Notes under the pieces: generated by a model | Seen by the model: only the letters and a program-made list of their open reading frames with translations | The model's database searches: none | Told to the model about the DNA's origin: nothing | Made by a program: the position numbers and the translations under genes | Origin: a virus | IMG/VR virus record: IMGVR_UViG_3300042453_003346 | Span: 1 to 37,315 of that record | Length of the DNA: 37,315 nucleotides | Reading direction: 5' to 3' (one strand) | Shown: positions 1,340 to 16,993 of the stretch, piece after piece | Position numbering within the stretch: the first letter of the stretch is position 1 | Layout of the letters: every line of letters starts with the position of its first letter

Positions 1340-2827
1340 TTATTCACTTTCCAAAGTTGCAACCTTTGCCAACAAAACCTGTAACTGTGCTTCGAGACTC
1401 ACCACACGCTCCCGAAGATCCTGCACAAGAGGGATGAGCAACACCGCCAGCCGGTCATAAGCCACGCCATCGGGCACTAGGTCGGTCGTTGAAACGGCTG
1501 GAATGTTGGCCCACGAGACGAGCATCGGCTCTATTGCCGCTACTTCTTCAGCGATGAGCCCGAAGAATCTCCCCTGCTGAGAATCCTCTGAAGCAAGAGA
1601 TGTGTAGCGAACTGCTCTGAAAGAATCAAAGATTGCCTCGGCCTGCTCGGTGCTTAAGGTCTCCACGTCTGTTTTGTAGCGTATGGATGAAGTCGACTTG
1701 ACCAGACCCCCGTTGCTGCCGAAGACCGCGTTTGCCGAACTGCCTGTGGTGCCGAGGTTGTTAAAAATAACTCGGTCAGCGCTAGAGCCTGGGGTCAAGT
1801 TGATGTCGGTGGTCGAGGTTATAGCGTTAGAGTTGATCACGAACGTGCCGCCGCATGTGATACTGCCGGTCGTGGTGACGGTGCTCGTCGTGGTTATTGC
1901 ACCGGCTGACGACACTGAGAAGACCGTCGAGCCTCCAGAGGTCACCGCTCGAAACAGGTCGCCGGTTCCTGTGCTGGCCTGCTGAGCGTAGACGGCTGGG
2001 GTTGTGCCTGAATTCCACACATGCAGTCTGCCAGAGGTGCCGATCGTATCGCCTACGGTCGCGCCGTCTAGGAACATCTTGCGCCCTCCGAATGTTTGTG
2101 TCCCTGTGCCCACGAAGCCTTTAATGGCGTTCGTGGCGTTTGGGAGGTGCAGAGTATGAACCCCGCTCGCAGATGCCCAGTAAGGAGCGCCGCCACTGTT
2201 GCCGGTGCCGATCGCAAAAGTCTGCGAGGCACTCGTCAGGGTGTTGAGGGTGGTGATGCCTGCGTCAGAGGCGTTCGCCCAGGCCGTTCCATCGTATTTG
2301 AGCACCTGGTTAGTTGCAGGGCTTGAGATGGCCACGTCACCAGTCAGAGCGGCCAGGGTGGACGGTATGGTGGGCTTGTTCGTCAGGTCGGTATAGGAGC
2401 CGCTCGTCGCAACAGTAGCAAGCGAGGGAGTGCCGCTCAGGTCACTGTAAGCGCCAGACGTTGCGACCGTGGCAAACGATGGCTTGTTGGTCAGGTCCGT
2501 ATAGCTCCCGCTGAAGGTGCTGTCGGTGGCATTTGCCCATGTGGTGCCGTTGAATTTGATGACCTGACCGTTGCTCGGAGAGGTGATTGCCACGTCCGAA
2601 AGGTCGTCGAGCGCGGAGGGGATCGAGGGCTTGTTTGTTAAGTCGGGATATGACCCAGAGAAGGAGCTGCCAGCTCCGATCTCAACGATGGTCTCGGTGC
2701 CGTTGTCCCTTTTTAGAAACAGCTTCCCGTCGTATGTCGAGATCGCAAGCTCCCCGAGCTGCAAATCGCTAGTCGTTGGAACTTTCCCCGGAACCGCGCT
2801 GCGTTTGATTTTTATTAAGCTCGCCAT
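1340..2827 (-). CDS. Tail fibre with C-terminal S74 intramolecular chaperone
   Basis: A 495-aa fibre protein. The N-terminus MASLIKIKRSAVPG is a phage-fibre start shared with the upstream fibre (MSNIIRIKRS). The middle holds repeated SGSYTDLTNKP modules, then a beta-rich Gly/Ser/Thr shaft. The C-terminal ~110 residues match the endosialidase-type chaperone domain (Peptidase_S74): SSIRYKTDVETLS, FGLIAEEVAAIEP, VAYDRLAVLLIPLV and a terminal coiled coil RERVVSLEAQLQ. In that family the chaperone trimerises the fibre and then cleaves itself off in front of the conserved Ser. It should be a trimeric host-recognition fibre. A hairpin terminator separates it from the preceding fibre gene. Confidence 0.85.
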   Translation of the reverse strand: MASLIKIKRSAVPGKVPTTSDLQLGELAISTYDGKLFLKRDNGTETIVEIGAGSSFSGSYPDLTNKPSIPSALDDLSDVAITSPSNGQVIKFNGTTWANATDSTFSGSYTDLTNKPSFATVATSGAYSDLSGTPSLATVATSGSYTDLTNKPTIPSTLAALTGDVAISSPATNQVLKYDGTAWANASDAGITTLNTLTSASQTFAIGTGNSGGAPYWASASGVHTLHLPNATNAIKGFVGTGTQTFGGRKMFLDGATVGDTIGTSGRLHVWNSGTTPAVYAQQASTGTGDLFRAVTSGGSTVFSVSSAGAITTTSTVTTTGSITCGGTFVINSNAITSTTDINLTPGSSADRVIFNNLGTTGSSANAVFGSNGGLVKSTSSIRYKTDVETLSTEQAEAIFDSFRAVRYTSLASEDSQQGRFFGLIAEEVAAIEPMLVSWANIPAVSTTDLVPDGVAYDRLAVLLIPLVQDLRERVVSLEAQLQVLLAKVATLESE

Positions 2828-2854
2828 TTTATGTCACCCGCGAAATGGGCGTTT

Positions 2855-2890
2855 AAGAGAGAAAGCCCCCTCCCTATATAGGGAGAGGGC
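2855..2890 (-). terminator. Probable intrinsic terminator between the two fibre genes
   Basis: On the minus strand, gccctctccctatatagggagggggc (given here as its plus-strand span 2865-2890) folds into a near-perfect GC-rich hairpin. It is followed on the transcript by tttctctctt. It lies just after the stop of the large fibre gene (2904) and before the ATG of the S74 fibre (2827). The U-tract is interrupted, so it may act as an attenuator rather than a full stop. Confidence 0.6.
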
Positions 2891-2903
2891 AAATTGACCT
2901 TAG

Positions 2904-5489
2904 TTAGAACGAACCGCCGTCGACCTCAACATTTGAGAGAGTGACTCCGTCGATAGAACCGCCCGAGATGGAGACGGAGCTCGATGCCTGAAGCGCCATT
3001 GAGCCAAGCTCAAGCGAGCTCCTTGCGTCACTGGCACTGGCAGATCCCGAGAGCGTCCGGCCAAAGCTGGTAAGGTCAAACGTCGAAGCTGTGCCGCTGC
3101 CCGTGAAGTACAAGCCTTTGTCACTGGCGCTCACCAATCCGGCGATTGCCGCGAGCTCCGCATCATAGGCTTGAACATCAACACCAGGCTCAAGATTGAG
3201 CAACCCCTGGACCCCAGCCGCATCAACCGCGCCGATCAGGTCGCGTCCGAAAGCTGAAAGGTCTGCAACATCCGCGGTTCCAGTACCCGTAAAGTACGGA
3301 ACTTTGTCAGCCGCGCTGGTAACCGAGGCTAAAGCGGCAAGCTCAGCGTCGTAAGCCTGCACATCGACACCCGGCTCAAGGTCCAAAAGGGTCCTTGTAG
3401 CGGCTGCGTCAGCAGCAGAAAGAACGCTGCGCCCGAATTCCGAACTCTCCACAAATTCGGCGGTGTTGCTCGCGCTGTAGCCAACCAGATTGACGACACC
3501 AGCGGAAAAGGATCCCGACAGGTCGCTGATGGATTGAAGCCGGGCGCTGTACGGTTGAACGTCAACACCTGGTTCAAGGTCCAAGACTGCCTGGGCTTCA
3601 GCAACGGTTGCAGACGCAATTAGGTTGCGCCCGAAACTTGTCAGGTCTGCCACAGCCGCAGTGCCAGCTCCGGTAAAGTATGCCACTTTGTTGGCAGCAG
3701 AAGTCAGCCCCCGAATCGCCTCAAGGTTGGCCCCCGCTTGCTGAGCGTCAAGGTTTGTTCGCGCTCCCGCTGCGGTTGTCGCCCCGGTTCCACCGTATGA
3801 GACAGCGACAGCCGAACCCTGCCACGATCCGACACTCACCGCGCCAGAGGCATTAACGGTGAAAAGCGGGGAAAGGGCAGAATCTCGCACGACAATCGCA
3901 TCAGCGGCTTGACCGGCTGCCATGTTGACATACACGTTTGCGGTGTTTGCTGCATTGGTCGACGAGATCGCCTGCGACTTAGTGGAGACAGTACCGAAGA
4001 GGTCCACCGTGAACAGCTTTGTCTGGCCGTTGTTTTGAACCTCAAAGATGTTACCCGTTTGACCCGACGCCCCTCGCACGATTGCAGCGGGAATCGACGT
4101 GGTTGTGTTCAGCACAAAAAGCTGAGCTGGGAATGACGCAGCATTGACAGACACTCGACCGAGCGTTGAGGTCGCCGACGACGCTCTGATTGCCGAGACC
4201 GAAGTGCCCTCAGGAGACTGAACTGCAAGCGCGGTCCAGTTACTTCCCTGATTGTGCGTGAGCGATGCGCGTTGAGCTGATCCCGATTTGAGGGCCAAAC
4301 CGAAAATCGCTGATGCACCGGCATTTGTGATGTTTACCGAGCTACCCGCCGCATTTGTTGAAACAAAATCGGCTACATCCTGACCAGTGCTGCTGACCGA
4401 GAAAGTGCCAGTCGAGTCAAAGGTTTTGACTCCGGCAAACGTCTGAGCCCCGGTTGTGACCAAACCTCGGTTCGTCGCGCTTGCGCTCGGAATGTTAAAG
4501 GTGTGCTCCGTGCTGCTTGACGAAATGTTAAAATCCGTCCCGGATGATCCGACGGCGAATGTCTGAGTGTCGCCCGTCAGGCCGTTCAGCGAGCTGATGC
4601 CGGTGTCAGCCGGAGCCGCCCATACTGCATCGCTTCCCACCTTCGTCAAAACATGCCCCGCCGAGGCCGAGCTCACGCCCGAAAGGGCATTGATGGCAGC
4701 TTGAGCCGATGTTTCGCCGGTGCCACCGTGAGCGATGGCGATAGTGTCACCTTCCCAAGTACCGGCTGAGATAACGCCGACTTCTTCGAGCGATGAGCTA
4801 ATAATTCCAGCTCCGAGCGCAGAGTCCGAAAGAACCTCTACGCCATCAATCTTAACAACCTTGCCAGAAGCAAGATTGAGGTTCTCAGACGACTTGAAGC
4901 TTGAGCTTGAGTTGTCAAAGAGGAATGACTTGTCGGTGGCACCCTTAACGATGATACCGCCTTGGTCGGCTGTCGTATCAGTCGGTGAGGCAGTTACGGC
5001 AAGCTCGATTGCCTTGTCTGCAATCTCAACAGTTGTGGAATTGATTGTGGTTACTGTTCCCTGAACAGTGAGGTCGCCGTCAACGGTGAGATTTTGAACG
5101 GTGAGATCACCTCCATCAAGGTCAAGATCCTTGCTTGCATCGACAACGAGAGCCTTCGACGCAGATGCCTGTCCTGCTGTGACTCCTGCCAGGTAGTTTA
5201 GCTCAGCAGCGGAAGCGGTGACCGCAACGGAATCAATTTCGAGTGTGCCGGTGAAATCAACAGCACCGGAGAATGTCTTGTCGCCGGAGACGGTCTGCTC
5301 GCCAGTGAGCGAAAGGAAGTATCCTTTACCGCCGATGGCTTCGATCGTGGTTGCTGAGCCGTTTGCCCCACCTGTACCCTTACCGATGAACAAGCCATCA
5401 GAAATTTCCGAGAACGCTAACTCCGCGTTGGCGAGGCTGCCGGGAGCGTTGTTGACTGTGCTGCGTTTGATTCGGATGATGTTGCTCAT
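2904..5489 (-). CDS. Large tail fibre protein with repeat modules
   Basis: An 861-aa fibre. It opens with MSNIIRIKRSTVN, a start used by many aquatic-phage fibres. Next come LTGEQTVSGDKTFSG-type and DLTVQNLTVDGDLTVQGT beta-repeats, then modules marked SYGGTGATTAAGARTNL. Four ~62-residue repeats follow (about residues 582-825), each carrying YFTG.GTA..DL(S/T).FGR and separated by LEPGVDVQ. It lacks an obvious C-terminal chaperone. The shaft architecture indicates a trimeric host-binding or virion-surface fibre. A good ribosome site (AAGGACTAATCC then ATG) supports the start. It is co-oriented with two small tail genes upstream. Confidence 0.83.
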   Translation of the reverse strand: MSNIIRIKRSTVNNAPGSLANAELAFSEISDGLFIGKGTGGANGSATTIEAIGGKGYFLSLTGEQTVSGDKTFSGAVDFTGTLEIDSVAVTASAAELNYLAGVTAGQASASKALVVDASKDLDLDGGDLTVQNLTVDGDLTVQGTVTTINSTTVEIADKAIELAVTASPTDTTADQGGIIVKGATDKSFLFDNSSSSFKSSENLNLASGKVVKIDGVEVLSDSALGAGIISSSLEEVGVISAGTWEGDTIAIAHGGTGETSAQAAINALSGVSSASAGHVLTKVGSDAVWAAPADTGISSLNGLTGDTQTFAVGSSGTDFNISSSSTEHTFNIPSASATNRGLVTTGAQTFAGVKTFDSTGTFSVSSTGQDVADFVSTNAAGSSVNITNAGASAIFGLALKSGSAQRASLTHNQGSNWTALAVQSPEGTSVSAIRASSATSTLGRVSVNAASFPAQLFVLNTTTSIPAAIVRGASGQTGNIFEVQNNGQTKLFTVDLFGTVSTKSQAISSTNAANTANVYVNMAAGQAADAIVVRDSALSPLFTVNASGAVSVGSWQGSAVAVSYGGTGATTAAGARTNLDAQQAGANLEAIRGLTSAANKVAYFTGAGTAAVADLTSFGRNLIASATVAEAQAVLDLEPGVDVQPYSARLQSISDLSGSFSAGVVNLVGYSASNTAEFVESSEFGRSVLSAADAAATRTLLDLEPGVDVQAYDAELAALASVTSAADKVPYFTGTGTADVADLSAFGRDLIGAVDAAGVQGLLNLEPGVDVQAYDAELAAIAGLVSASDKGLYFTGSGTASTFDLTSFGRTLSGSASASDARSSLELGSMALQASSSVSISGGSIDGVTLSNVEVDGGSF
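3017..3746 (-). repeat. Four tandem ~62-codon repeats inside the fibre gene
   Basis: Within the fibre gene, units beginning AQQAGANLE, PYSARLQ, AYDAELAAL and AYDAELAAI are joined by LEPGVDVQ. Three of the four share YFTG.GTA..(D/F)L(T/S).FGR. The second unit is divergent (NLVGYSASNTAEF). The last two units are the most alike, suggesting recent unit duplication or recombination. The DNA is diverged enough that this is protein-level repetition rather than a simple DNA satellite. Confidence 0.8.
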
Positions 5490-9826: not shown

Positions 9827-10027
9827 TTAGTCCTTTGATTGCTTTCGCTTGGTTTTCGTCTTGAGATGCCGCAACCGCTGAATGGCAACCTCCTGCTGCT
9901 CAATAAATTTCAGCGCGTCGTTTTTGCAGTAAAAGGTCGCGGCCACATGGGGCCCACCTGTGCGACGCACCCGCGCGGTATAGGACACGCGCCCCTTCCT
10001 GCTCTTGCGCGTCATAATGCTTCCCAT
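9827..10027 (-). CDS. Stand-alone AP2/integrase-arm-like DNA-binding protein
   Basis: A 66-aa, highly basic protein. Residues ~9-45 (RKGRVSYTARVRRTGGPHVAATFYCKNDALKFIEQQE) follow the three-strand-plus-helix pattern of the AP2-like arm-binding domain at the N-terminus of many tyrosine integrases (G.W.ARVRR.G......TF..K.DA..W...E). Nothing follows that could be a catalytic domain. The start overlaps the exonuclease stop (TAATG), so it is coupled to that gene. It may be a free DNA-binding factor, for example acting with the phage integrase, which lacks such a domain, or a recombination accessory protein. Confidence 0.55.
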   Translation of the reverse strand: MGSIMTRKSRKGRVSYTARVRRTGGPHVAATFYCKNDALKFIEQQEVAIQRLRHLKTKTKRKQSKD

Positions 10028-10962
10028 TAGTTGCCCCCATTGATGATGTACAAGCGCTCGTACTCGTACGCCGAAGCAAGCCGCTCCGGTACGCTGACCC
10101 GCTTCACCTTGAAGCGCCGACCGTCTGCAAACGCTCCCTCCCCGCTGTCGCCCAGCGCAACGCGCAGCGCGTTCTCGCGGCGTTTGATCTGCGCGTCTAG
10201 CTGCCGCGCCTCGTCATCAAGACCTGACTTTCGTACGCGGAGCTCGACCAGCTCATCGAAAATGGCGCCGAGCCTTTCGGTCTGCTCTGCCGTAAAAAGT
10301 CTAGTGCTTGCGTTCCGCTGCACGAGCTCAAGGATCAGCTTTCCGTCCTTCTCGTTCGGCATGGGAGGCTCGTCGGTTTTGACGCACTGGAGGAACTCGT
10401 CTGCCGCTGTGAGCAGCGCGTTGAAAAGCTCATAGTCCAGCTCGAAAGTCCGGGTGACGAAATTCGCCGGGTCCGCGCCAAGCAGCGCGGCGAGATGCCC
10501 GTTTTGAACGCCGCAGACGCCGAGCTGCCACATCAGTTGAACGACGTAATGGTCCGGCGTCTCGTCGTCGGCCCACTTTGAGAGCTGCCGAACCGTCCCA
10601 GTCTTCGCCTCAAGCAGCTCGTCCCCGCCTACCACGAAATCAGGCGTTGCCACCGCCCAGTCGAGGTCTTTGTGCGCGAAAAGCGCATCGCTCGCCGTCA
10701 CCTCCCGACCAGTCCGCCGCGCGTAGAGGGAGCCAACGTAGGGCTCTAAGAGGCTCCCCAGCTCCGTGTACTCGTTGCCAGCGAACTCGTCCCGCACCTT
10801 GCCGGTCCACTCGGCCCAGAGCTGGTATGCGCTCTTGTAGGGGTTGACCCCGACGATGCTGGTGATGGTGGTGCTGCTGACCTTGCCAGAGCGCAGCGCC
10901 AGCCATTGATTTCTGTTTGAGCTGACCCCATCTAGGATCAGTCGTCCGGTTCCGACCGTCAT
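10027..10962 (-). CDS. YqaJ-family recombination exonuclease
   Basis: A 311-aa protein of the YqaJ/lambda exonuclease fold. Conserved pieces are the N-terminal RNQWLALRSGKVSSTTI and VGVNPYKSAYQLWAEWTG, then the likely metal-binding set E73 (GSLLEPY), D108 (ATPDFVV) and E118-x-K120 (ELLEAKTG). It would degrade 5' strands from double-strand ends to give 3' overhangs for the annealing protein. The start at 10960-10962 has GGAGGAATCAA in front. The longer frame to 11028 overlaps the previous gene and is rejected. The C-terminal ~100 residues form a charged helical extension (AIFDELVELRVRKSGLDDEARQLDAQIKRRE), longer than in minimal family members. Confidence 0.85.
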   Translation of the reverse strand: MTVGTGRLILDGVSSNRNQWLALRSGKVSSTTITSIVGVNPYKSAYQLWAEWTGKVRDEFAGNEYTELGSLLEPYVGSLYARRTGREVTASDALFAHKDLDWAVATPDFVVGGDELLEAKTGTVRQLSKWADDETPDHYVVQLMWQLGVCGVQNGHLAALLGADPANFVTRTFELDYELFNALLTAADEFLQCVKTDEPPMPNEKDGKLILELVQRNASTRLFTAEQTERLGAIFDELVELRVRKSGLDDEARQLDAQIKRRENALRVALGDSGEGAFADGRRFKVKRVSVPERLASAYEYERLYIINGGN

Positions 10963-10999
10963 TTGATTCCTCCGTAGTGCTGCTGCAGACTTTTCACGC

Positions 11000-11323
11000 T
11001 CAGTCCCGCCCGACCTGTCGGAACTCAAAAAAGCTCCGATGCTGGGGATATTTCAGCGCGAAGACCCGCGCCAGATAAGGCGCGTCGGTGTTGTTGACTT
11101 TGAAGTCGCCGCTTTGCTCGACCTGGTGCTCCCAGCGAACGCGGCCAAGGATGTCGATCGCCCCGGCGCGCTTGCGCTCGGAAATGAGCCGGAGCGTCAG
11201 TCGCTCGAACTCCTTCCAAACGTCAGGACAGAGCCGGAACCGCCGAGAAAATGCTTCGATGTCCGAGCGCGGATACCCGCACTCGCAGAGATGCGCCTGG
11301 ACCTGATCCAGAGACAGGCCCAT
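11000..11323 (-). CDS. Conserved phage protein upstream of the exonuclease, unknown
   Basis: A 107-aa protein (MGLSLDQVQAHLCECGYPRS...). The C-terminal half, ILGRVRWEHQVEQSGDFKVNN and PYLARVFALKYPQHRSFFEFR, resembles a conserved phage family with the pattern RVRWE......FK.NN....Y.AR.F...HP....FF..R. That family is frequently encoded near phage recombination genes and has no assigned function. It starts two bases after the stop of the 45-aa membrane protein gene, so the two are coupled. Confidence 0.65.
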   Translation of the reverse strand: MGLSLDQVQAHLCECGYPRSDIEAFSRRFRLCPDVWKEFERLTLRLISERKRAGAIDILGRVRWEHQVEQSGDFKVNNTDAPYLARVFALKYPQHRSFFEFRQVGRD

Positions 11324-11325
11324 CG

Positions 11326-11463
11326 CTAGAACCTCAGTTCAAGGTAAATGAGAACGACGGCCAGGGCCGAGCAAGCCCCGGCGATAAACCATAGAAGCTC
11401 CGGCTCTCGCGCGGGTATGTGAAGGGGTTGATTTTTAGGGGTATGATGGTTGGCGTTGGTCAC
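11326..11463 (-). CDS. 45-aa single-pass membrane protein (GTG start)
   Basis: A short gene using GTG at 11461-11463, with GGAG six bases upstream (cggagtgaaac then GTG). Translation reads MTNANHHTPKNQPLHIPARE, then a hydrophobic helix LLWFIAGACSALAVVLIYL, ending ELRF. The ~20-residue hydrophobic stretch with the short charged flank predicts one transmembrane helix. Its stop at 11326-11328 is followed two bases later by the next gene start. It is preceded by an A-tract hairpin leader (11491-11527). It may belong with the membrane proteins at 11713-12674 (immunity-like and HIRAN). Confidence 0.7.
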   Translation of the reverse strand: MTNANHHTPKNQPLHIPAREPELLWFIAGACSALAVVLIYLELRF

Positions 11464-11490
11464 GTTTCACTCCGTTGGGTGACTGACGCT

Positions 11491-11527
11491 GCCGCATCGG
11501 AGTTCACGCTCCGGTGCGGCTTTTTTT
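11491..11527. promoter_or_regulatory. A-tract/hairpin leader of the 45-aa gene; plus-strand terminator
   Basis: A 12-bp stem (11491-11502 with 11509-11520; one G-U type pair) with a six-base loop, bordered by seven T on the plus strand (11521-11527). Read on the minus strand it is seven A, then the hairpin, then 27 bases to the GTG start. It would function as an intrinsic terminator for plus-strand RNA, but no plus-strand gene precedes it. Two similar leaders occur at 14374-14412 and 15104-15132. Confidence 0.75.
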
Positions 11528-11619
11528 GGCGTTAATCACGCGTTTCGAGTGAAACGGTGCGACTCAGGCTCTCAAAAAAGTGAGAGATCCTTACTTATCG
11601 GGCAAAACTGCCGAGCCCT

Positions 11620-11644
11620 AAAAAAAGGAACCGCGCACCGTTCC
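11620..11644 (-). terminator. Intrinsic terminator after the HIRAN gene
   Basis: On the minus strand, GGAAC (11644-11640 read in reverse) - eight-base loop - GTTCC is followed directly by seven T (11626-11620). It lies about 70 bases after the HIRAN gene stop. The stem is only five base pairs, so efficiency may be partial. The rest of the gap 11464-11712 contains further inverted repeats (for example ctctca/tgagag at 11572-11586 and ggaac/gttcc) and no convincing promoter. Confidence 0.6.
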
Positions 11645-11712
11645 ACGCCCCGACCTTCCCCCATTTTTAGGGTTTTGAAAAGATAAAATGTCACGCCACT
11701 GGCAAGAATTTA

Positions 11713-12303
11713 TCAGCCAGGGTTTGATTCCTTGCTTTTGCCCCGCTTGGATGGCTGGCGCTTTGGCTTCGGGGTCCGCGGGGTTTCATCGAGCCCCTGC
11801 TTGAGACGCTTTTCCTTAAAGAGCATGAAGTCGAGCATGATGCCGAGGCGGGGCTTGTCAAAGGTGCCGCCAATCAGCCGCGCGCGGCAAAAAATCGGCC
11901 TTCCGCTTTCGATGGCTTCGATGTGGGTCTTGAGGAACTCTTTTGCGTCGGCTCTGCACAAATAGCCGACCGTCTGCCCGTCGAAATGGACACGCACCGC
12001 ATTTGGATCGTGCGGGTTGGTTGGCTCAGGCTCTAAGCCTGCCCACAGCTCATCCGATGCTCGACGCATTTCGGCGCTGGCCCTCATTTCGCGCAAAGCG
12101 CCCTGATAGTTTGACTCCCCAACAACCTCGACAAACCCCCCGACCCGGCCCCCGAGTCGGATCGCGTTTTCTGGCAAAACCTGGATTTCTGGGGCCGCCC
12201 ACCTGACGCTTTGCCTCCCACCTCCATACTGTAGCCACAGCGCACCGGCCAGCACGATGCCAAGCACTGCGATAGACCAGGACATTACCGATGAGAAGTC
12301 CAT
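11713..12303 (-). CDS. Membrane-anchored HIRAN-domain protein
   Basis: A 196-aa protein. Residues ~7-26 form a transmembrane helix (MSWSIAVLGIVLAGALWLQY), leaving the rest probably cytoplasmic. A HIRAN-type domain follows: VVGESNYQ at 60-67, GLEPEPTNPHDPNAVRV at 89-105 and TVGYL at 111-115. HIRAN domains bind DNA 3' ends in eukaryotic remodellers and also occur in bacterial nuclease or stand-alone proteins. The tail (residues ~165-196) is Lys/Arg/Pro-rich. The gene overlaps the immunity-like gene by 19 bases and both are in the integrase operon. It is therefore a candidate superinfection or defence accessory; the role is inferred. Confidence 0.7.
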   Translation of the reverse strand: MDFSSVMSWSIAVLGIVLAGALWLQYGGGRQSVRWAAPEIQVLPENAIRLGGRVGGFVEVVGESNYQGALREMRASAEMRRASDELWAGLEPEPTNPHDPNAVRVHFDGQTVGYLCRADAKEFLKTHIEAIESGRPIFCRARLIGGTFDKPRLGIMLDFMLFKEKRLKQGLDETPRTPKPKRQPSKRGKSKESNPG

Positions 12304-12674
12304 TTGCCCCCCTGCAAAACCTTTCGACTTAAATCCGTATTATCTTGAGCAGAAAAACTGACCGCGGAGCCAAACCGACCCCTCCGGCTCCCTACCCGTC
12401 GCTTCGGCAGCGGAGCCGGACGGCGCTCGCCGTCGTCGGGGTCCGGGTCATCCCCCAGCTCGATGACAGCCTCGACAGTCGGAGCGGTTTCCGCTGCACT
12501 CCCAGCCGCGGCCCAGATTAGTGCTCCGAGCCAGCCGAACCAGGTCCAGCCGCATGTTAGGTTCAGCGCAAAAACCCACCCGCTTGCTGCATGACCACGC
12601 GCAGCCGCGACGATTGCCGGGAGGAAATACGCCCCCACCAGCGCAATTCCCAGAACCATGAAACCCATCTCCAT
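12285..12674 (-). CDS. Superinfection immunity family membrane protein
   Basis: A 129-aa protein. The N-terminal ~57 residues carry two hydrophobic helices with the pattern AYFLPAIVAAARGH (15-28) and FALNLTCGWTWFGWLGALIW (35-54). This matches the Imm_superinfect family (YFLP.I.A..R.H....I..LN...GWT..GW...L.WA), named after T4 imm, which blocks entry of superinfecting phage DNA. The C-terminal half is acidic then basic and probably cytoplasmic and disordered. Only two bases separate the integrase stop from this start, so the two are cotranscribed, consistent with expression from a prophage. Family members also occur outside phages, so immunity function is likely but unproven. Confidence 0.75.
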   Translation of the reverse strand: MEMGFMVLGIALVGAYFLPAIVAAARGHAASGWVFALNLTCGWTWFGWLGALIWAAAGSAAETAPTVEAVIELGDDPDPDDGERRPAPLPKRRVGSRRGRFGSAVSFSAQDNTDLSRKVLQGGKWTSHR

Positions 12675-12676
12675 AC

Positions 12677-13633
12677 TTAGCCCCTTTTCTTCTTTTCTTT
12701 GTAGTCGATGCTCAGGCCGCAGTTCGTTTGCGGCGACCGTACCCTCTTATCGTAGGTGGCAACCATTAAGGTGCTTGAATGCCGAAGAAAGGCAGCCACA
12801 TCACGATCCTCAAACCCATTGTCAAGCAATAGAGTGGCGGCGGTTGCCCGAGCCGAGTGCGGTGGGATCGCCCCCAGGCCAGCCGCCAGGGTGTATCGTT
12901 TATAAAGCCGCCGCATTGTCTCGATCGAGAGCCGACCGCGATGCCTCTCATCGACTGAGTAGAACGCGAAAAGCGGATCGTTGTTCCCAGCCCCCTCGCC
13001 TGACCGCTGGGATACAAGGGCAGTAAAGCCCTCCCAGGCCCATGCCGGCAACGACTGGCGCTGCGTCTCGCCGTTTTTCGTGCGCTTGAGCAGGAGGTAA
13101 AGAGTGCCATTCGTGGTAACGCCAACGTCGCCCACGTTCAGCCCGTGGGCTTCTGAGATGCGCAGCCCACCGCCGAACAGAATCGAAAGCAGGCAGTAGT
13201 CGCGCCGCCCCTCCTTTGTCCGTCTGTCCGGCATTTCAAGCATTTCGACAACCTTCAGCGCTGGAATCAGCCGCGTCGGACGCTTCTGCCGCCGCTGTCT
13301 TTTTGGGATCTCGGCCAGCACAGCGTCGAAAATGTTGCGCTTAATTAGGCCCATGCCCACAAAGTAGCGAAAAAGCCGCCTCAATAAGTGAAGCCGCTGC
13401 GAATAGGTCGCATCAGCCAAGACGCCGCCGTCCGGTGCCGGATACCTCCGTAGCCAGATCGCAAACTGCATCGCCTCTGGCCCCTTCATACGCTTGATCC
13501 GCGCGAGAAACGCTTCGGAGATGTTTTCGAAGCCAAGATACTCCGCGAGCTTGAGCAGACTTTGCCGGTAAGCACTTGCGCTTGCCGAGGTCTTCACGCT
13601 GAAAAAATTTTCGAGAATCGTTTTTGCCTTCAT
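12677..13633 (-). CDS. int: Tyrosine site-specific integrase
   Basis: A 318-aa tyrosine recombinase. Residues ~1-100 are a SAM-like core-binding domain. The catalytic domain follows with R158 (GLRIS), K183 or K186 (LLKRTKN), H259-x-x-R262 (PHSAR), H285 (LRHSS) and nucleophile Y294 (ATYDK). It lacks the arm-binding domain that precedes the core-binding domain in lambda-type integrases. The start at 13631-13633 has a strong ribosome site (GGGAGGGGG). A TTG-started extension to 13735 has no signal and covers the repeat-containing upstream region. It would integrate and excise the phage genome. Its operon continues into the immunity-like and HIRAN genes. Confidence 0.92.
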   Translation of the reverse strand: MKAKTILENFFSVKTSASASAYRQSLLKLAEYLGFENISEAFLARIKRMKGPEAMQFAIWLRRYPAPDGGVLADATYSQRLHLLRRLFRYFVGMGLIKRNIFDAVLAEIPKRQRRQKRPTRLIPALKVVEMLEMPDRRTKEGRRDYCLLSILFGGGLRISEAHGLNVGDVGVTTNGTLYLLLKRTKNGETQRQSLPAWAWEGFTALVSQRSGEGAGNNDPLFAFYSVDERHRGRLSIETMRRLYKRYTLAAGLGAIPPHSARATAATLLLDNGFEDRDVAAFLRHSSTLMVATYDKRVRSPQTNCGLSIDYKEKKKRG

Positions 13634-13760
13634 AGCCGATCCCCCTCCCAACTTTTTCGGTTTATGACCTGTTTCATCAGTTGAGACACATATCCCACAT
13701 ATCCGCTGCTCAGTTTTTGCTCCTGTATGGGTCAAACGCCCTATGGGACGCCCAACCCAT
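13634..13760. other. Candidate attachment/regulatory region upstream of integrase
   Basis: This gap holds a perfect tandem 9-bp direct repeat, cacatatcc, at 13687-13695 and 13696-13704. It also holds an imperfect 34-bp dyad (13727-13760) with outer arms atgggt and acccat and inner cgccc/gggcg-like elements. Such pairs of short direct repeats near a dyad are typical of recombinase or excisionase binding sites, so part of attP could lie here. A host attachment core cannot be defined without a bacterial junction. Confidence 0.4.
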
Positions 13761-15503: not shown

Positions 15504-15746
15504 ATGGGCATGAAATTTATAGAAATAGTGAAGCAGCGGTCGGGCTGTGCGACGCAGTACGCTTTTGCCAAGAAACTAGGCATCTCCATCCAGTCTGTGC
15601 AGTATATTCTAGGCGTCACAGCGCGCCCCAGAACGCGCAAGAGCATCGACCCGCGCTTGCTCTGCAAGTTGCGAAAAGCCGGTGGGCTGACGTGGGAGCA
15701 GCTCGGCAAGCTTCTCGATCGGGAATTTGGCGACAAGGGCGACTAG
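15504..15746 (+). CDS. Small HTH transcriptional repressor
   Basis: An 80-aa protein, the only plus-strand gene. Residues ~14-45 (ATQYAFAKKLGISIQSVQYILGV) form a helix-turn-helix of the Cro/CI type, with a short C-terminal helix (LTWEQLGKLLDREFGD) and no cleavable RecA-responsive domain. The start is uncertain: ATG 15495, 15504 or 15510. The middle one coincides with the predicted RNA start. No Shine-Dalgarno is visible. It should bind the operator at 15456-15473 and repress the early promoter. Its stop overlaps the methyltransferase stop on the opposite strand (CTAG at 15743-15746). Confidence 0.75.
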   Translation: MGMKFIEIVKQRSGCATQYAFAKKLGISIQSVQYILGVTARPRTRKSIDPRLLCKLRKAGGLTWEQLGKLLDREFGDKGD

Positions 15747-16993
15747 GCGATCAGGTTGTCGGCATCGGCAACGTGATCGGGCTTGCTGATGTACCCCGAC
15801 ACATCATCGCCGTTTAGCCTACACTCGAAGGGCTTGCCGCTTTTCTCGCAGTGCGCTTTATAGCGGTCGACGATTACCTGACAATACTGCGGGCTGATTT
15901 CCATCCCGTAACACCTGCGGCCTAGTTGGTCGGCAGCGATCAGCGTGGTGCCGGAGCCGCAGAATGGGTCGTAGGCAAATTCTTGAGGCGCGGTGGAGTT
16001 GCTCATCAGATAGGCGAACATCTCCACGGGTTTCATCGTGGGGTGTTCCTGGCTTCGTTTTGGACGGTCAAAGCGCAACACAGTGGTCTGCTTTCGGTCG
16101 CTGTACCAGCCGTGGGACGCGCCGTCTTTCCAGCCGTAAAGGCACGGCTCATGCTGCCATTGGTAGTCCTGCCGTCCCATGACAAGGGTGTCCTTTGCCC
16201 ATACAAGGCATTGGCGCACCTTCTGCTGACAGTCGAAGATTGCGCCATGGAAGTTATAACCTTCGCTGGGGGCATGGAATACATAAAACGACCCGCCCGG
16301 CTTCAGGGCGTCAAAGGCAGCGCCAAAGCAAGCCACGAGGAACTTGCGGAAGTCGCCATCAGCCATGCTGTCGTTGGGGACCTTCAGGGCATCCTCTGTC
16401 TTGCCAGTGTAGTCCACATTGTACGGCGGGTCGGTCAGCATAAGGTCGGCGCGTTGCCCATCCATCAGCCGTTCCACGTCCTCTACCTTCGTCGAGTCGC
16501 CGCACATCAGCCTATGCTCGCCAAGCTCCAACACGTCGCCGAGCTTGATGATCGTCTCTTTCACTTCTCTCGGCTCGAAATCATCTTCCTCGATCGTCTT
16601 CTCCTCGGGAAAGAGCTTTGCAAACTCGTCGAGCCCCCACGCCGCGAGGTCGAAGTCGGCATCCTCAAGCGCCGCGAGCTCAAGGTTTAGGCTCTCAGCG
16701 TCCCACGTCGAATCGTTTTGCAGCTTGTTGTCGAGAATCCGGTAAGCCTTCCTCTGCGTCTCGGTTAGTCCGGCTTTCACCAGAACAGGCACCTCAGAAA
16801 GCCCCAGCTTTCTAGCCGCTTCAAGCCTTCCATGGCCGACCAGAACGACCCTACTTTCGTCCACGACGATCGGCTGGTTGAAGCCAAACTCTGAGATCGA
16901 GTTTGCAATTCGGTCGATCTGCTGTGCGCTGTGTACACGGTTGTTGAGCGTGTAGGCGATGAGCGAATCCACCGCCATGAGTTGAACGTCCAT
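15743..16993 (-). CDS. ParB-domain/DNA adenine methyltransferase fusion
   Basis: A 416-aa protein. Residues 1-~75 form a ParB/sulfiredoxin-type domain (IANSISEFGFNQPIVVD, then LVGHGRLEAARKLG, with GHGR at 53-56). The rest is a beta-class N6-adenine/N4-cytosine methyltransferase with catalytic DPPY at 188-191, HPTMKP at 317-322 and the S-adenosylmethionine-binding FCGSGTT at 344-350; motif order DPPY before FxGxG defines the beta class. ParB-methylase fusions are common in phages. No restriction partner is present, so it is an orphan enzyme, likely protecting phage DNA from host restriction or marking it. The ribosome site is GGAGAAAA then ATG. It ends the late gene block. Confidence 0.88.
   Translation of the reverse strand: MDVQLMAVDSLIAYTLNNRVHSAQQIDRIANSISEFGFNQPIVVDESRVVLVGHGRLEAARKLGLSEVPVLVKAGLTETQRKAYRILDNKLQNDSTWDAESLNLELAALEDADFDLAAWGLDEFAKLFPEEKTIEEDDFEPREVKETIIKLGDVLELGEHRLMCGDSTKVEDVERLMDGQRADLMLTDPPYNVDYTGKTEDALKVPNDSMADGDFRKFLVACFGAAFDALKPGGSFYVFHAPSEGYNFHGAIFDCQQKVRQCLVWAKDTLVMGRQDYQWQHEPCLYGWKDGASHGWYSDRKQTTVLRFDRPKRSQEHPTMKPVEMFAYLMSNSTAPQEFAYDPFCGSGTTLIAADQLGRRCYGMEISPQYCQVIVDRYKAHCEKSGKPFECRLNGDDVSGYISKPDHVADADNLIA

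Follow-up and report, generated by a model that had tools for sequence, protein, structure and literature searches.

We analyzed a window of 37,315 bp, which corresponds to the whole IMG/VR record IMGVR_UViG_3300042453_003346. The window represents a temperate, siphovirus-like phage, and nearly all of its genes, among them those for terminase, portal, HK97-type capsid, tail, replication, and a RecE-like protein, lie on the minus strand. On this strand, a tyrosine integrase gene (12677-13735; PF00589 at 68.8 bits, with matches to the integrase families phrog_1 and phrog_216) is the first gene of a tight cluster. It is followed, after a gap of 2 nt, by the gene of a 129–amino acid Imm_superinfect protein (12285-12674), which in turn overlaps by 19 nt with a gene encoding a 196–amino acid membrane-anchored HIRAN protein (11713-12303). 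This confirmed the arrangement given in the preliminary description, in which an Imm-type gene directly follows the integrase and runs into an overlapping transmembrane (TM) HIRAN gene. Both the Imm and the HIRAN gene start with an ATG preceded by a G-rich stretch, and their GC content at third codon positions is like that of the other genes of the phage. The cluster is co-oriented with the structural genes, and the sole candidate repressor of the phage (15495-15746, phrog_35 at 0.0024) is encoded on the plus strand, opposite to the integrase cluster. Thus, expression of the cluster from the prophage is not evident. The RecE-like gene (10027-11028) is located further downstream on the strand of the HIRAN gene, as are the replication genes. 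The relatives of the capsid protein were found in Pseudomonadota genomes (33-41% identity), while the terminase was nearest to that of Firmicutes phages (46-47%), so that the assignment of a host from these matches is not decisive. An Rfam scan of the window returned no match. Elsewhere in the window, positions 15743-16993 encode a ParB-like domain fused to a DNA methyltransferase.

A 45–amino acid TM protein (11326-11463, minus strand) had also been counted as a part of the module. Its open reading frame (ORF), which has a GTG start preceded by GGAG, a single C-terminal TM helix, and no family match, looks real. It lies 249 nt past the HIRAN stop codon, beyond a weak intrinsic terminator–like hairpin with a T run (11644-11627, minus strand), and its end is separated from the next gene (phrog_13625) by 2 nt. 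Because of this tight coupling, the ORF is more likely to be part of the downstream unit, and we therefore place it probably outside the Imm/HIRAN pair. The terminator-like sites in the region numbered nine in total as compared to 4.7 +/- 2.4 expected from shuffled sequences, which is not clearly above expectation. A strong terminator-like hairpin (13 pairs, 7 T) at 11491-11520 reads on the plus strand, where no gene was recognized.

The Imm-type protein matched PF14373 at 49.9 bits (cut-off 27.9), with the domain spanning residues 16-55 (12510-12629, minus strand), and was assigned to phrog_1039, annotated as "immunity to superinfection," at 5.2e-16. The sequence of T4 Imm, taken from the T4 record, matched the same Pfam family at 58.2 bits and fell into the same PHROG. 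When T4 Imm was aligned by hhalign to an Imm profile of 12 sequences led by the window protein, the match reached a probability of 98% over 62 columns with 29% identity and spanned both helices. The modeled structure is a two-helix hairpin formed by helices 2-26 (kinked) and 31-58; as is typical of the family, both sequence and model place a short positively charged loop between the two membrane helices. Judged by sequence, the assignment of the window protein to the Imm family is thus sound. The two proteins have the Pfam family, the PHROG, and the two-helix membrane region in common. They differ in that T4 is strictly lytic, with no HIRAN neighbor in the stretch of its genome that was read, and in that the window protein carries a long charged C-terminal tail. 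According to the T4 record, Imm leaves the DNA of the superinfecting phage in the periplasm, and the protein stops genome translocation while adsorption is not blocked (PMC6832632). By analogy, the window protein may act in the same way.

Other Imm-type genes encountered in the fetched loci showed further variations. One phage carries a tandem pair of them (L121:4260-5210 and L137:5001-5465), the second gene in L121 having a 150–amino acid N-terminal extension. In Pseudomonas phage YMC11/02/R656 (L005:4977-5564) and its relative (L096:4953-5564), a gene located among the tail genes encodes an Imm domain, a zinc ribbon–like CPYCAE motif, and a C-terminal domain.

The match of the second protein to the HIRAN family (PF08797) was marginal, with 26.8 bits against a cut-off of 24.7 and 35 residues covered. 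However, its AlphaFold model (mean pLDDT of 82.6, with most of the core above 90) consists of a membrane-length helix at residues 3-26 (12226-12297, minus strand) followed by a complete HIRAN domain at about residues 57-160 (11824-12135, minus strand), which contains the core motif EPTNPHDPNAVRV with VGYL. The best PDB matches of this model identified by Foldseek were all HIRAN domains with a probability of 0.99-1.00, namely, the HLTF structures 4s0n (with DNA), 6kcs (with duplex DNA), and 4xzf/4xzg, with the bacterial lp_0118 (3k2y) close behind. Because the positive charge is carried by the residues after the helix, the positive-inside rule predicts that the HIRAN domain is cytoplasmic. The protein matched family phrog_4721 weakly (0.0038) and had no close relatives among plasmids. 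Close relatives of either the Imm or the HIRAN protein were absent from the viral contigs, and phages yielded distant ones only. Together, these data bore out both family assignments of the preliminary description, a two-helix Imm_superinfect protein and a HIRAN domain with an N-terminal TM helix.

The HIRAN domains of HLTF and Rad5 have the same fold as the window domain, although they belong to nuclear helicases without a membrane anchor. In HLTF, the single-stranded DNA (ssDNA) site is bordered or formed by N90, N91, and the stacking pair Y72/Y93 (PMC4666394). A sequence alignment revealed that N91 is kept in the window protein (N96), while T95 stands in for N90, and N65 and H98 take the places of the stacking residues Y72 and Y93. 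Histidine at the position of Y93 is common (60 of 101 aligned HIRAN proteins). The equivalents of N91 and D94, conserved in the window domain, are kept in practically all 101 proteins, which is partly an effect of the search pattern. The HIRAN domain of yeast Rad5 binds ssDNA without the need of a 3'-OH (PMC7804152). Thus, DNA binding by the window HIRAN domain is plausible by analogy with these proteins. The sensing of incoming DNA ends suggested in the preliminary description, directed at the 3' end as in HLTF, would be a hypothetical property of this domain.

We searched for further Imm/HIRAN pairs with our own profiles in loci fetched from viral contigs (78 Imm and about 90 HIRAN). A single adjacent pair was found outside the window, in locus L139 (IMG/VR 3300050021_000719), where an Imm gene (1781-2035) is followed after 75 bp by a TM-HIRAN gene (2110-2736) and by a third TM gene (2765-3307). 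These genes are set among tail genes and not by an integrase. The contig is unrelated to the window phage, and its HIRAN belongs to a different sequence group. Among viral contigs, this HIRAN had no relative other than itself, and none was found in 199 Acidobacteriota genomes in a search run without a positive control. The third gene encodes a 180–amino acid protein with an N-terminal membrane helix and no family match. Its equivalence to the 45–amino acid ORF found no support, since no homolog of either was found among the fetched loci.

According to whole-record Pfam searches, HIRAN was present in 3 of 50 Imm-bearing viral records (adjacent in L139, about 3 kb off in L096, and about 15 kb off in G507). 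Conversely, Imm was present in 1 of 50 HIRAN records, at a distance of tens of kb, and adjacent in none. Likewise, 61 Imm loci from bacteria had no HIRAN at distances of up to 3 kb, and among 289 alphaproteobacterial genomes, 12 carried HIRAN, 20 carried Imm, and none carried both. Thus, the pair is a rare association, which extends beyond this genome by one locus. Two other candidates were discarded: the phage HIRANs of the PaMx74/Mallos group are soluble and located in metabolism regions with no Imm annotated nearby, and the "immunity" gene of phage R656 had no HIRAN within the 10 kb fetched.

The preliminary description had proposed that Imm and TM-HIRAN constitute one system. The L139 pair speaks for this proposal, but the zero counts for adjacency in HIRAN records, for bacterial Imm loci, and for joint presence in genomes speak against it. 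With the 19-nt overlap and one other pair, a joint Imm/HIRAN machine is possible, and the evidence points weakly to a two-component system. Alternatively, the two genes could be chance neighbors, that is, separate cargo inserted beside an integrase as a common insertion place and sharing a transcript but no common job. Imm and HIRAN are almost always apart, and each alone adjoins integrases: HIRAN does so in many loci, and Imm genes lie 3-16 bp from an integrase in L113 (an unrelated phage) as well as in L181 and L210 (Gastranaerophilales contigs). However, chance does not readily account for the 19-nt gene overlap or for the recurrence in L139 of the same Imm–then–TM-HIRAN order involving a HIRAN from another sequence group. 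Moreover, HIRAN is rare, being found in 6 of 199 Acidobacteriota genomes in addition to the 12 alphaproteobacterial ones. For the three HIRAN genes in the 50 Imm-bearing records, we estimate odds of roughly 1 in 10 that one of them would come to lie beside Imm by coincidence, which is improbable but possible. Taken together, we consider chance neighborhood somewhat unlikely, yet the most serious of the alternatives.

A more general pattern emerged for the membrane-anchored HIRAN proteins. A helix N- or C-terminal to the HIRAN domain was predicted in 45 of the 100 HIRAN proteins in the set, and the type of the anchor varied, including an N-terminal single or double helix, a C-terminal helix, and a TM2 domain. 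For 24 N-anchored single-helix proteins, topology prediction placed the C terminus inside in 21 cases and outside in 2 (both TM2 fusions), with 1 tie. We then grouped the proteins at 50% identity and identified tyrosine integrases by HMM. An integrase was found within 5 kb of 13 of 26 membrane-HIRAN clusters, as compared to 2 of 21 Imm clusters (P = 0.004) and 5 of 24 soluble-HIRAN clusters (P = 0.04). Within 500 bp, the respective counts were 8 of 26, 2 of 21, and 3 of 24, and the differences were not significant (P = 0.15 for membrane-HIRAN versus Imm). Thus, the integrase linkage seen at the window locus is found again for membrane HIRAN genes far outside this genome. The usual order is an HTH/CI-type repressor, membrane HIRAN, and integrase on one strand, as in L084, L235, L236, L082, L050, L035, and L048, and the pneumococcal phage 23782 has a phage repressor, TM-HIRAN, and integrase in the same order. 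HIRAN proteins without a predicted helix occupy the slot between repressor and integrase in Streptococcus pyogenes Javan509 and Staphylococcus aureus JS01, which indicates that some of these proteins can do without the membrane anchor.

A TM-HIRAN protein encoded in the lysogeny module of a pneumococcal prophage was named thaL in 2025 (PMC12637031), in the sole paper found with the term "transmembrane HIRAN"; no function is reported for it in the available portion of that text. The protein of phage 23782 presumably corresponds to the published thaL. Thus, the earlier statement that the combination has not been described holds for the pairing, as we found no paper joining "superinfection immunity protein" with HIRAN, but not for the TM-HIRAN protein. 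Like the window protein, ThaL combines a membrane helix and a subsequent HIRAN domain in one protein, and its gene is located in the integrase/lysogeny region. However, genes of the ThaL type lie on the lysogeny strand with the repressor on one side and the integrase on the other, giving the order repressor-HIRAN-integrase in phage 23782, whereas the window gene lies downstream of the integrase in the order integrase-Imm-HIRAN and is co-oriented with the structural genes. In addition, the window protein lacks the basic N-terminal domain (phrog_10934/3374 type) that the protein of phage 23782 carries as an extra part, and no Imm partner was seen in the stretch of that phage that was read.

The slot between repressor and integrase could also indicate that TM-HIRAN is a lysogeny sensor, which detects at the membrane the ssDNA ends arising from DNA damage, competence, or conjugation and tunes the repressor or induction, as other genes of lysogeny modules do. 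According to the available text of PMC12637031, the slot in pneumococcal prophages holds thaL, szaL, or spaL, and both szaL and spaL alter the response of the prophage to competence. Nevertheless, thaL itself is without a reported function in that portion of the article, no enzymatic or signaling domain was seen in the window protein, and the window gene is not beside a repressor, which together make a sensor role improbable. Even less probable is an aid to replication or recombination, with HIRAN tethering DNA ends at the membrane for the neighboring RecE-like exonuclease: although the RecE-like and replication genes follow on the same strand and soluble phage HIRAN genes are found near nucleotide and DNA metabolism genes, other membrane HIRAN genes are part of lysogeny modules or, in the case of L139, are surrounded by tail genes, and in the window HIRAN and RecE are kept apart by the 45–amino acid ORF, the phrog_13625 gene, and an intergenic gap.

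Two further systems provided points of comparison. Ltp of Streptococcus thermophilus phage TP-J34 is a superinfection exclusion lipoprotein encoded beside the integrase and a proven blocker of DNA injection (PMC3952083). Like the window genes, ltp encodes a membrane-held protein beside an integrase, in this case within the lysogeny module; in contrast to the window proteins, Ltp is an unrelated lipoprotein that lies outside the membrane and has neither a HIRAN nor an Imm domain. HIRAN domains also occur in a toxin-antitoxin or defense setting, in the HipL/HipN proteins and the PADLOC candidate PDC-M03B (PMC8262856), but these are accompanied by a kinase or HipS-like partner, and none was present at the window locus.

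We favor the interpretation, with a probability of about 0.42, that the integrase cluster of the window carries two separate membrane guard genes, one T4 Imm–like and one ThaL-like, which would act on incoming DNA mostly independently. It builds on the observed homology of each part, the membrane anchor, the coupling of the genes, and the recurrent integrase linkage of membrane HIRAN genes, and it supposes that the window genes would be expressed in the lysogen or early in infection, would bind DNA, and would exclude other phages. Both proteins would act at the inner membrane against entering DNA. Imm, as in T4, would alter the membrane and thereby keep the DNA of a second phage from reaching the cytoplasm, while the HIRAN domain, positioned on the cytoplasmic side of the membrane, would bind ends of entering DNA that are single-stranded or frayed and prevent their use. 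As either family is mostly found without its counterpart, the two proteins would probably act in parallel, with no obligate complex between them. In favor of two such guards we counted the homology to T4 Imm, the integrase linkage, the repressor-HIRAN-integrase order, the slot of ltp, the C-in topology, the varied anchors, and L139. Against them we counted the strand of the cluster, the location of L139 among tail genes, the lack of significance at 500 bp, the replacement of Y72/Y93, the soluble HIRANs in the slot, and the many Imm-family genes of unknown function in bacterial contigs.

The membrane-anchored HIRAN proteins encoded near the integrase in many unrelated phages are probably prophage gatekeepers. 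Transforming ssDNA enters the cell with its 3' end first. It is conceivable, albeit a long way from likely, that membrane-tethered HIRANs are a widespread and repeatedly reinvented prophage device that catches free DNA ends, of phage or transforming ssDNA, at their cytoplasmic entry and thereby blocks superinfection or transformation-driven loss of the prophage, with the Imm pairing as an occasional reinforcement. If membrane HIRANs do capture DNA ends, this would represent a general means by which prophages protect their cell from entering DNA, and bacterial HIRAN domains, few of which have an assigned function, would gain a role open to testing. The survey yields several independent membrane-HIRAN families with different anchors for tests of end capture, and the Imm-HIRAN pair lends itself to testing whether blocking entry at the membrane and binding DNA ends have additive effects.

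Some of the HIRAN proteins had unusual architectures. In one phage protein (L054:4608-5255 and L056:4608-5255), a TM2 domain is fused to HIRAN, which represents another independent route to the membrane. The helix-less HIRAN protein of Staphylococcus phage JS01 (L289:1904-2761), encoded downstream of the repressor, has a long N-terminal region that appears PH-like by eye. Last, a stand-alone version (66-69 amino acids) of the basic N-terminal domain found in the pneumococcal TM-HIRAN protein is encoded in the lysogeny modules of Streptococcus and Lactococcus phages (loci for this domain are L285:2525-3439, L286:2028-2237, and L287:2504-2704), and the domain had additional matches in phages of Paenibacillus and Lactobacillus.
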